A program made the translations under genes and the position numbers. From the NCBI GenBank assembly GCA_945860685.1, contig CAMASJ010000003.1:1-46160 (forward strand): a DNA stretch of 46,160 nt, read 5' to 3'. The stretch comes from Akkermansia muciniphila. GTDB lineage: Bacteria > Verrucomicrobiota > Verrucomicrobiia > Limisphaerales > UBA9464. Positions 34,089 through 37,537 of the stretch are shown piece after piece. The notes beneath the pieces are model-generated. The model worked only from the letters and a program-made list of their open reading frames with translations, was not told the origin of the DNA and ran no database searches. Numbering within the stretch: position 1 is the first letter of the stretch; every line of letters starts with the position of its first letter.

Positions 34089-34820
34089 ATGAAGAACATC
34101 ACCAAATTGGCAGTTGCAGCCGCCATCGCGTCTGTCTCCGCCTATGCCCAGTCGGTTTCGTACACCAACTCCATTCCGCTTGCCTACGCTGGTACGGCCA
34201 GCGGCGGTATTGGTCTCAACTTCTCCGGTCAGGCGCTGACTCTTCCCCAGTGGGATTCAGCTTCCTTCCCCGGTCAGACCTTGACGGGTGTCTCCTACAC
34301 CCTGACGGGCTACATGTACGGCACCTACACGATTTCGAACGGCGCTCAGGCGGCCAACTTCTCCATCAGCTTGGCCAACCCGAGTTTCTCGCTGGCTGGC
34401 CCGTTCGGCGGCTCTCCTGCTCTGAGCCGTACCTCCACCCACTTCGGTGGTGGAATCTTCGAAGACCTGCTCAACGTTGCTCCCAGTGCCGTTGTTAACG
34501 GATCGACTGCCCTCGGAACCTCCACGACGGCTACGGGCACTGACTTGTCGAATGTTGGCAGCTACATCGGCAGCGGCACCGTGACCTTCACCTTGGGTGG
34601 TTCTGCCAACCTTGGCATCTCCGGTGAAGCTACCTCGGGTAACCAGTCCGTCCTCTTCACCCAGGCGGCTTCGAAGTTCGGAGCCAGCGTGGTGTCCGTT
34701 ACCTACACCTACGCTCCGACCGGAGTTCCCGAGCCGAGCACCTACGCGGCCATGGGCTTCGTCGGTCTGGTTGCCGGTGCCACGATCTGGCGCCGCCGTC
34801 AGATGGCCAAGAAGGCCTGA
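34089..34820 (+). CDS. PEP-CTERM protein, choice-of-anchor E-like
   Basis: A 243-residue exported protein with a short signal peptide (KLAVAAAIASVSAYA). The body is Gly/Ser/Thr-rich beta structure; ALTLPQWDSASFPGQTLTGV fits the choice-of-anchor E domain. The C-terminus is a full PEP-CTERM signal: VPEPSTY, a hydrophobic helix (AAMGFVGLVAGATIW) and RRRQ, for exosortase processing. No exosortase gene is in the window. Codon use is richer in T-ending codons than the neighbours, which may reflect high expression or different origin. A 6-bp hairpin (CGTTCC/GGAACG at 34059-34075) lies just upstream of the ATG. Confidence 0.92.
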   Translation: MKNITKLAVAAAIASVSAYAQSVSYTNSIPLAYAGTASGGIGLNFSGQALTLPQWDSASFPGQTLTGVSYTLTGYMYGTYTISNGAQAANFSISLANPSFSLAGPFGGSPALSRTSTHFGGGIFEDLLNVAPSAVVNGSTALGTSTTATGTDLSNVGSYIGSGTVTFTLGGSANLGISGEATSGNQSVLFTQAASKFGASVVSVTYTYAPTGVPEPSTYAAMGFVGLVAGATIWRRRQMAKKA

Positions 34821-34844: not shown

Positions 34845-34878
34845 AAACGGACCGGAGGCGACTCCGGTCCGTTTTTTT
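34845..34878 (+). terminator. Intrinsic terminator of the PEP-CTERM gene
   Basis: AAACGGACCGGAG, loop GCGA, CTCCGGTCCGTTT, then TTTTCCGTTT. The 13-pair perfect stem is one of the strongest in the window. Confidence 0.95.
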
Positions 34879-34934
34879 CCGTTTCTGCCCGCTGCGGCTT
34901 GCCCTTCCAACGGTCTGGAGACATTGATGGAGTG

Positions 34935-35135
34935 ATGAAATTGACGTGGAAGGATTCGGAAGAGGTTGCTTGGGCGCTCTTGGACAAGTTCCCGGACCAA
35001 GACCCGCTCAAACTCAGTTTTCCCAAGCTGCACAAGATGGTGTGTGAGCTGGAGGGATTTGACGATCGGCCGGAGGCCTCCAACGAGAAGATCCTCGAGA
35101 ACATCCAGATGGCTTGGTTCGAGGAACGGCAGTGA
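34935..35135 (+). CDS. iscX: IscX-family Fe-S assembly accessory protein
   Basis: A 66-residue acidic protein matching IscX (YfhJ): MKLTWKDSEEVAWALLDKFP, then HKMVCELEGFDDRP and NEKILENIQMAWFEE. IscX binds IscS and iron and modulates Fe-S cluster assembly. Length and conserved acidic and Trp residues are standard. The start is the ATG at 34935; the longer ORF-track start crosses the upstream terminator. No isc or suf genes are adjacent, so it stands alone between the PEP-CTERM gene and thrS. Confidence 0.92.
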   Translation: MKLTWKDSEEVAWALLDKFPDQDPLKLSFPKLHKMVCELEGFDDRPEASNEKILENIQMAWFEERQ

Positions 35136-35321
35136 TCCGGTCGATGGTGGGTGTTTCCTGCGTCCGACATTTCCGTTCCCCGGCCCCCCCTTTCCCCAAC
35201 GGTTGACTGGGTAGTGATCACAAGTCCGGCAAACTCTGCGCATCGACTCGTCTCCCGCCGAGCTCCATCCTCCGGGAGTTTCGCGTTGCCTCAGGTATCC
35301 CTCTGAAGGCCTAATGGCGTC

Positions 35322-35357
35322 GTGAGCAACGGCTCCAACGATTCGACAACCCGATAG
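35322..35357 (+). other. Possible leader peptide upstream of thrS (Thr-Thr codons)
   Basis: GTG-initiated mini-ORF reading MSNGSNDSTTR then TAG. Two consecutive Thr codons (ACA ACC) lie just before the stop, and the stop touches the first leader hairpin. The ribosome binding site is weak (AAGG 12 bases upstream), so translation is uncertain. It is proposed as an attenuator leader peptide only because of its position. Confidence 0.3.
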
Positions 35358-35387
35358 CGTCTGGCCGGTGTTTTCCCTGCCGGACGC
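35357..35387 (+). promoter_or_regulatory. Leader hairpin upstream of thrS
   Basis: GCGTCTGG, a 15-base loop, CCGGACGC with one T-G pair. Its 3' arm CCGGAC can instead pair with GTCCGG (35409-35414), inside the following terminator hairpin. That gives a possible antiterminator. Confidence 0.5.
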
Positions 35388-35390
35388 CAG

Positions 35391-35429
35391 AACGCCTCGC
35401 ACCTTCAGGTCCGGGGCGTTTTCGTTTTA
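35391..35429 (+). terminator. Intrinsic terminator in the thrS leader
   Basis: AACGCCTCG, a 12-base loop, CGGGGCGTT with one T-G pair, then TTCGTTTTAT. It lies about 110 bases before the thrS start and 255 bases after iscX. It may end the iscX transcript or act as a thrS attenuator. The rest of the 401-base gap (35136-35536) has no gene; a TTGACT at 35203 lacks a good -10. Confidence 0.7.
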
Positions 35430-35536
35430 TGGCTCCGCTTCCGAACCGTCTTCAATCGAACCGAAATCCGATCACGACCCTCAGTTCTGCCACACACAGA
35501 CCGGAAAGAGGGCCGAGAACCTAGAGCTTCCATTCC

Positions 35537-37537
35537 ATGCAAGAACCAACCCCTTCCCCTTCCCTCCAGGCCGCCAAGTCGGAGGTCGAACGCAAGACGC
35601 TGGAACAGCGCGATCAGATGGGTGAACTGGAACGCATCCGCCATTCCTGCGCTCACATCTTGGCCACCGCGGTTCTGAGGATCTGGCCGGATGCCCTTCT
35701 CGACATCGGCCCGCCCACCGCAGAGGGCTTCTACTACGATTTCGACCTGCACCACCGCTTCACGCCCGAGGACTTCCCGCGCATCGAGGAGGAGATGCGC
35801 AAGGTCATCAAGGAGAACCAGGTCTTCCAGAAATCCATCCAGACCCGTGACGAAGCCAAGGCCTACTTCGAGTCCAAGGGACAGAAGTTCAAGGTGGAGC
35901 GTCTCGGAGACATCCCCGAGGGCGAGGCGATCAGCTTCTACCAGAACGGCGAGTTCGTGGACCTCTGTGCCGGCCCGCACGTGATGCGGACGGGCAACGT
36001 GAAGCCCGGCGCGATCAAGATCCTCAAGGTCGCCAGCGCCTACTTCCGCGGAAACGAGAAGAACCCCCAGCTCCAACGCCTCTACGGCACCGCATTCAAG
36101 AACAAGGAGGAGCTGGAAGCCTGGCTGAAGATGCAGGAGGAGGCCCGGAAACGGGATCACCGCCGCATCGGCGCCGAGATGGGACTTTTCGCCATGGACG
36201 CCGAGTATGTCGGGCCCGGACTTCCCCTTTGGCTGCCCAAGGGAACCGTCCTGGTGGAAGAATTGGAGCGCTTGGCCAAGGAGACCGAGTTCCAGGCCGG
36301 GTATGTCCGGGTCAAGACGCCCCACTTGGCGAAGGAGAAGATGTACCGCACCTCCGGCCATCTTCCCTACTACGCCGAGTCGATGTTCCCGCCCATGGAG
36401 ATGTTGGAGGAGGACGAGCGGGCGAGACGCGATGATCTGATGGAGAAGCGGGCGGATCTCCTTCGGCTCGACGAAGGCCTTTCGAACGCCATCGGAGCCA
36501 ACACCAGCGGATTGACCCGGGAACAGATCCGCCAAGACGTCCACCGGTTGGAAGCCGAGATCTCGCTCCTCGGTGGCCGCTACTACCTCAAGGCGATGAA
36601 CTGCCCGCACCACCATCGCATCTTCGCAGCCGAGCCCCGCAGCTATCGGGACCTGCCGCTGCGATTGGCGGAGTATGGCACCTGTTACCGTTACGAGCAG
36701 TCCGGCGAACTCTTCGGTCTCATGCGGGTGCGTTCGATGAACATGAACGACGCCCATCTGTACTGCACCGCGGAGCAGTTCGCCGACGAGTTCCGGGCGG
36801 TGAACGAGATGTACCTGAAGTACTTCAAGATTTTCGGGCTCGACCGCTACCAGATGCGTTTCAGCACCCACGATCCGGCCCGGCTCGGACAGAAGTTCGT
36901 CAACGAACCTGAGCTTTGGAAGAAGACCGAGGACATGGTCCGTCAGGTGTTGGTGGAATCCGGGATCAATTTCGTCGAGGTGGCCAACGAGGCCGCGTTC
37001 TACGGACCCAAGATCGACGTGCAGGTATGGAGCGCCATTGGACGGGAGTTCACCATCGCGACCAACCAGGTCGATTTCGCGGTGCCTGCGCGCTTCGGAT
37101 TGACCTACCGCGACCGCGACAACACGGAGAAGACCCCTCTCTGCATCCACCGCGCGCCCCTCGGAACCCATGAGCGATTCATCGGTTTCCTGATCGAGCA
37201 CTACGCCGGCAACTTCCCGCTCTGGCTCGCCCCGGAACAGGTCCGTGTCCTCACCCTCAACGACGAACCCGCGCTCGTGGACTACGCCCGTTCGATCGTT
37301 TCTGAGCTCCGGAATCAGTTCGTCCGCGTGGAAGGCGACCTCGGGCCGAACCCGGTGAAGGCCAAGATCGCCGACGCCGAGAACGCCAAGGTCCACACCA
37401 TGCTCGTGGTCGGCCAACGCGACCTCGAATCCGGCGCCGTCAGCGTACGCCTGCACGGCAAGGGCAACATCGGAGCCAAGCCGCGGCAGGAGGTGGTTGC
37501 CGACATCCTCGCCTCGATCCGGGAACGCCGTTCCTGA
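35537..37537 (+). CDS. thrS: Threonyl-tRNA synthetase, lacking TGS domain and with a 60-residue insert
   Basis: Charges tRNA-Thr; class II synthetase of 666 residues. The N-terminal TGS domain of the E. coli enzyme is absent; after about 33 residues the N2 editing domain begins with RIRHSCAHILATA (H36, H40) and VDLCAGPHV (C144), so editing looks intact. The catalytic core has zinc ligands C356 (MNCPHHHRIF), His in MNDAHLYC and His in CIHRAPLGTHERF, plus motif 2 YRYEQSGELFGLMRVR. Residues of about 290-350 are a charged helical insert (EEDERARRDDLMEKRADLLR) between motif 1 and NCP. The anticodon-binding domain closes the protein. infC is not adjacent, unlike the usual thrS-infC order. Confidence 0.97.
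   Translation: MQEPTPSPSLQAAKSEVERKTLEQRDQMGELERIRHSCAHILATAVLRIWPDALLDIGPPTAEGFYYDFDLHHRFTPEDFPRIEEEMRKVIKENQVFQKSIQTRDEAKAYFESKGQKFKVERLGDIPEGEAISFYQNGEFVDLCAGPHVMRTGNVKPGAIKILKVASAYFRGNEKNPQLQRLYGTAFKNKEELEAWLKMQEEARKRDHRRIGAEMGLFAMDAEYVGPGLPLWLPKGTVLVEELERLAKETEFQAGYVRVKTPHLAKEKMYRTSGHLPYYAESMFPPMEMLEEDERARRDDLMEKRADLLRLDEGLSNAIGANTSGLTREQIRQDVHRLEAEISLLGGRYYLKAMNCPHHHRIFAAEPRSYRDLPLRLAEYGTCYRYEQSGELFGLMRVRSMNMNDAHLYCTAEQFADEFRAVNEMYLKYFKIFGLDRYQMRFSTHDPARLGQKFVNEPELWKKTEDMVRQVLVESGINFVEVANEAAFYGPKIDVQVWSAIGREFTIATNQVDFAVPARFGLTYRDRDNTEKTPLCIHRAPLGTHERFIGFLIEHYAGNFPLWLAPEQVRVLTLNDEPALVDYARSIVSELRNQFVRVEGDLGPNPVKAKIADAENAKVHTMLVVGQRDLESGAVSVRLHGKGNIGAKPRQEVVADILASIRERRS

Follow-up and report, generated by a model that had tools for sequence, protein, structure and literature searches.

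The classical leader-peptide attenuators are those of E. coli trp, thr and his. The gene for threonyl-tRNA synthetase, thrS, is controlled in Firmicutes by T-box leaders that read uncharged tRNA and in E. coli by an operator that is bound by ThrS, neither of which works with a leader peptide. Attenuators have been described for trpS and leuS in Streptomyces (PMC1262725) and for hisS/hisZ in bacilli (PMC2965389), and as far as Naville and Gautheret knew in 2010, only Proteobacteria and Actinobacteria had provided demonstrated cases of leader-peptide attenuation before their own bacillus case (PMC2965389). Leaderless forms have been described as well: mycobacterial poly-cysteine sORFs are presented as leaderless attenuators in the account of Canestrari et al. 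2020 given in PMC9031893, and the RNA 5' end of the Sinorhizobium meliloti trpL attenuator is the ATG of the leader ORF, making it a leaderless mRNA (PMC7298713). Here we analyzed the region upstream of thrS in a 46,160-nucleotide stretch of DNA from an uncultured member of the Verrucomicrobiota (the whole of which is referred to here as the window). Our comparison of sequences indicates that this region is very probably a ribosome-mediated transcription attenuator of thrS.

The leader upstream of thrS

The proposed regulated gene, thrS, lies at 35537-37537 of the window on the forward strand, as do all features described here, and relatives of it were located in 58 of the 59 genomes searched. 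Upstream of thrS, we read directly from the sequence an 11-codon ORF at 35322-35357 (GTG AGC AAC GGC TCC AAC GAT TCG ACA ACC CGA TAG, i.e., MSNGSNDSTTR and a stop codon), which is predicted to be leaderless. Its two Thr codons, ACA ACC (35346-35351), are the candidate sensor codons. The ORF is followed by a first hairpin (hairpin 1, 35357-35387), formed by GCGUCUGG at 35357-35364 and CCGGACGC at 35380-35387, the first base of which falls within the leader-ORF stop codon. An intrinsic terminator (35391-35428) comes next, with AACGCCUCG at 35391-35399 pairing with CGGGGCGUU at 35412-35420, then TTTTCGTTTT, the U tract spanning 35419-35428. A first-pass annotation of this DNA had described a mini-ORF ending in S-T-T-R-stop, a hairpin at that stop codon and a terminator approximately 110 nt before thrS, all with correct coordinates. 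The leader (35322-35431) folds at -46.7 kcal/mol compared to a shuffled mean of -33.0 kcal/mol (z -3.9), and 0 of 200 shuffles folded as well.

The absence of a T-box motif, also reported by the first-pass annotation, was borne out by covariance-model search, in which no Rfam family, the T-box model included, reached the gathering threshold in the window. At E values up to 5, the region 35200-35540 matched just two sub-threshold Burkholderia sRNA models, and no Rfam leader family (the enterobacterial threonine operon leader, for example) matched the window. A scan of the window for consensus promoters and terminators called neither here, its pattern being too strict for this locus: the terminator scan requires a loop of 8 or less and a denser T run, and the window stem has neither. 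Elsewhere in the window, at 34848-34882, there is a strong hairpin resembling a terminator (CGGACCGGAG...CTCCGGTCCG, followed by a T run) that is unlike the thrS terminator in sequence. It follows an ORF at 34089-34820 whose C-terminus (PEPSTYAAMGFVGLVAGATIWRRRQ) has the look of a PEP-CTERM signal.

Distribution, threonine codons and linkage to thrS

BLASTN of the leader returned a short conserved hairpin/terminator block in ten genomes beyond the closest relatives of the window. Our first search of oriented thrS upstream regions used a terminator-only pattern with no codon content and identified 29 genomes. All 29 contained in-frame Thr codon(s) near a stop codon at the foot of hairpin 1, with the Thr codon(s) followed by one further codon (two in G050) and the stop; only G008 had a single Thr codon. 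Examples of leader peptides in relatives, each ending at a stop codon, are MLYVGNTTTP, MFVRRNTTTI, MKWLNRTTTTI and MALGRNTTTTF. A covariance model built from these 29 elements matched approximately 115 of 293 genomes of the same order (38-83 bits) and added 88 elements within Limisphaerales, giving a total of 117. Since the model includes the Thr run, the 88 elements it added are not wholly independent of the Thr codons, while the first 29 are. Beyond the order we found nothing convincing among 388 phylum genomes, where the best match, the window's own excepted, reached 35.5 bits; matches of 27-35 bits elsewhere in the genomes or the phylum were treated as hairpin-terminator look-alikes. We also inspected the sequence upstream of thrS in 37 named records, which for the most part lay outside the order or had no model match; the only Thr leader in the expected place was that of L237, already a covariance-model match.

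The first-pass annotation had called its own case tentative and proposed an alignment of thrS leaders from relatives. Across Limisphaerales all four parts are kept (mini-ORF, Thr codons, hairpin and terminator), and these comparative data make the case for an attenuator a strong one. Because it is conserved in 117 genomes, the arrangement is not a product of chance. Two further thrS upstream regions carry a terminator of the same type: one (L218:1876-1940, AACGCCTCG...CGAGGCGTTTTTG) has no Thr run and is a possible relic, and the other (L063, in G049) is accompanied by a GTG frame encoding MRTITTRFRPVGRTG and a stop, possibly a divergent form missed by the pattern.

Selection on the leader peptide is evident from its Thr codons. 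Across the 117 elements, Thr occupies codon -2 in 112, codon -3 in 109, codon -4 in 102 and codon -5 in 66, such that ACN accounts for 389 of the 468 codons in this stretch, compared to 6 and 0 in the other two frames. All four synonyms (ACA, ACC, ACG and ACT) are in use within the Thr runs, and it is this third-base freedom that indicates selection on the amino acid. The codon directly before the stop is almost never Thr and is mostly Ile, Phe, Leu or Arg. The stop codon itself (TAG in 102 elements, TAA in 11 and TGA in 4) has a constant place at the foot of hairpin 1 (offset 15 in 116 of 117 elements).

The element is also tightly linked to thrS, which lies downstream on the same strand, within approximately 740 nt, in 113 of 117 elements. 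No thrS was seen with the remaining four, for which the downstream sequence was approximately 110 nt each (G110 and G060), 592 nt (G109) and 1000 nt (G096). In approximately 30 genomes thrS starts within approximately 30 nt of the terminator, directly abutting it in some, which leaves no room for another promoter. In those genomes the terminator therefore lies inside the thrS transcript, and termination of iscX, the gene upstream of the element in the window, is ruled out as a general explanation. Judged by this gene order, the element belongs to thrS and not to iscX.

Hairpins, promoter and proposed switch

Hairpin 1 shows covariation. In an alignment of 89 sequences, seven of its nine consensus pairs have changed in both partners. 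Counted over hairpin 1 plus terminator, there are 128 double-change cells; shuffles gave 36, and slid controls far fewer. The terminator is paired in 95% of cells, and every aligned element has a stem with a U tract. Two parts are near-frozen in sequence: GCGU:ACGC at the base of hairpin 1 and GCCUC:GRGGC in the terminator. Such freezing is what one would expect of words engaged in more than one interaction, without being proof of it.

The first-pass annotation had also proposed a specific switch, in which CCGGAC (35380-35385) pairs with GTCCGG (35409-35414) as an antiterminator. This complementarity is present in the window as a bare observation, but as a switch it is not kept by many relatives: of the 89 sequences, 20 have A-C and 6 have A-G at the central pair, and the outer pair is mostly unpaired. 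Thus, of the pairings put forward for a covariation check, hairpin 1 covaries and the alternative pairing is not conserved; the attenuation reading stands as a Thr leader-peptide attenuator of thrS, on the strength of its order-wide conservation, and loses the switch first proposed for it. A second candidate is the basal 2:4 register, RACGCC:GGCGUU, which in the window would bring GACGCC (35383-35388) together with GGCGTT (35415-35420). Across the 89 sequences this register pairs in 95.8% of cells and never covaries. The terminator is the more stable of the two, by a median of 6 kcal/mol and by 12 kcal/mol in the window. Lacking covariation and weaker than the terminator, the register is no more than a candidate antiterminator. 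When arm 1 was masked, the predicted probability of the terminator was still near 1 in almost all of 29 sequences. We found no strong partner for the terminator 5' arm, with a ribosome masking the base of arm 1, that would form before the terminator 3' arm is made, and no classical 2:3-type antiterminator in the elements.

Most elements have a promoter ahead of the mini-ORF, consisting of TTGCC(A/T), 17-18 nt and TANNNT. In the window it reads TTGCCT (-35-like, 35286-35291), an 18-nt spacer and CCTAAT (-10-like, 35310-35315, a weak match to the TANNNT of most relatives), then 6 nt and the GTG. In 94 of 114 elements, the distance from the -10 to an in-frame ATG or GTG is 6-9 nt, and in 60 it is exactly 6 nt. 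Frame-blind start offsets for 78 strict promoters gave 40 at 6 nt, 16 at 7 nt and no more than 6 at any other distance. Transcripts usually start approximately seven nt after the -10. Because the spacing of the start codon matches this distance, the leader ORF is probably leaderless, with its start codon at or a few nt from the transcript 5' end. A probably leaderless ORF would account for the weak Shine-Dalgarno sequence that the first-pass annotation had taken as grounds for doubt.

From these features we infer a leaderless start, ribosome stalling and antitermination as follows. Transcription from the promoter at 35286-35315 would begin at approximately 35322, placing the start codon of the 11-codon leader at the RNA 5' end, and the leader peptide would be translated as a leaderless mRNA, as the spacing suggests. 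When Thr-tRNA is ample, the ribosome would complete the peptide, hairpin 1 and the terminator would fold and most transcripts would end at approximately 35428. When charged Thr-tRNA is scarce, the ribosome would stall on the ACN run. By its usual footprint, a ribosome halted at the final Thr codons would extend over just the frozen hairpin 1 base. Its leading edge would thereby occlude GCGU and free the 3' arm, ACGCC, upon which termination might fail more often and thrS would be made. The sole order-wide candidate for this last step is that the ACGCC of arm 2 may rival the identical ACGCC of the terminator 5' arm for GGCGU.

We also inspected leaders of other genes. Upstream of ilvB there are Val-rich leader ORFs in seven of eight relatives examined and in the window's own genome (MSTAIVLVPVVVGGIAAAGSCRA and a stop, contig C4, L307). 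The ilvB leaders (L295, L296, L297, L298, L299, L302, L303 and L307) are Val/Leu-rich, e.g., MIKNVQQVLVVVVVGGVAGACRG followed by a stop, and lie close behind a TTGAC promoter; a hairpin of the CUUGUCGA:UCGACAAG type follows, with a terminator directly abutting it. The regions upstream of hom and pheS (8 and 10 genomes, respectively) contained no convincing conserved leader peptide. The ilvB leaders suggest a second leader-peptide attenuator with a layout similar to that of thrS, and that attenuation may be general in the order. A bolder and quite tentative possibility is that Limisphaerales have a distinct two-hairpin, leaderless form of attenuation, similarly laid out at thrS (Thr run) and ilvB (Val/Leu run), in which the stalled ribosome strips the base of a stop-codon hairpin that directly abuts the terminator, with no classical antiterminator; Verrucomicrobiota would thereby gain their first described case of leader-peptide attenuation.

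Alternative explanations and known systems

The alternative that survives best concerns only the copy in the window, which might be a decaying relic with little regulation left, a reading compatible with an attenuator in the family as a whole. Its two Thr codons are at the low end (11 of 117 elements have two), its -10 is weak, there is a single Thr codon in the sister lineage G008, and the element is missing from most species of the genus. The element is absent upstream of thrS in G001, G002, G003, G005, G007, G010, G011 and G012, and also in G014, G015, G016, G017 and G018 of the same genus; in genus members without it, thrS lies close behind another gene, which may be read, as a side point, as loss or relocation of the element within the genus. 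Against decay, G000, G004 and G013, three species whose whole leader region differs by 6-9%, have the same leader ORF to the letter, and both hairpins of the window copy are intact. We consider a relic unlikely on balance.

Less probable still is that stalling at the Thr codons acts by another route, such as translational coupling, Rho or RNA stability, with the hairpins serving mainly as pause or stability elements. Such a route would fit the lack of a thermodynamically convincing antiterminator, and mycobacterial cysteine leaders have been reported to be attenuators with no obvious terminator (PMC1262725) and to affect how downstream genes are translated (PMC9031893). However, every element has a canonical intrinsic terminator with its U tract, and the distance to thrS in some, up to approximately 740 nt, argues against direct translational coupling. 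There is very little room for a third reading, that a structured RNA sensor (a T-box, a riboswitch or a ThrS-binding operator) controls the terminator and that the mini-ORF is incidental. The order-wide freezing of the terminator and the hairpin 1 base would suit it, but neither an RNA nor a protein ligand needs in-frame Thr codons with free third bases and a stop, the element is just approximately 105 nt and nothing in Rfam, T-boxes included, matches it. Least probable of all is the suggestion of the first-pass annotation that the terminator simply ends the iscX transcript, thrS having its own downstream promoter: iscX is indeed upstream on the same strand (stop at 35135) and the terminator is strong, but relatives conserve a promoter directly before the mini-ORF, the Thr run is under selection and thrS is the partner, at the distances given above.

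A transcription attenuator read by a ribosome at Thr codons thus remains the preferred explanation. With more than 115 members delimited by Thr codons, a covarying hairpin and a promoter, the family is ready for use as a regulatory RNA family. For uncultured bacteria of soils and lakes it offers a threonine sensor that is easy to find, and for Verrucomicrobiota a case on which leaderless translation can be tested. It also raises the question of by what means attenuation works without an evident antiterminator. Our literature search, which covered mainly open-access papers, returned no leader-peptide attenuator of thrS and none from Verrucomicrobiota, which is no proof of absence. The element has the appearance of a threonine gauge that a ribosome reads, a device whose general kind is known but which is unreported for thrS or Verrucomicrobiota in the literature searched.

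Similar to classical attenuators, including those of aminoacyl-tRNA synthetase genes, it has a short ORF with a run of cognate codons, followed upstream of the gene by hairpins and an intrinsic terminator. It differs from them in its gene (thrS), its phylum (Verrucomicrobiota), its probably leaderless ORF, a hairpin 1 that starts from the stop codon and the lack of a 2:3 antiterminator among the elements. With the thrS T-box and the E. coli thrS operator it would share control of thrS by threonine supply or ThrS level, but it has a leader peptide and no T-box match. The mycobacterial poly-Cys sORFs, as far as PMC9031893 describes them, likewise have an operon preceded by a leaderless mini-ORF in which sensor codons form a run, the leaderless start being a prediction in our case; they use Cys, belong to Actinobacteria and have no obvious terminator (PMC1262725), whereas here the codons are Thr and an intrinsic terminator is conserved. 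The S. meliloti trpL attenuator differs in its Trp codons, 14-amino-acid peptide, target (trpE(G)) and class (Alphaproteobacteria), yet it has the start codon of its leader at the RNA 5' end, just as is predicted for the thrS leader.
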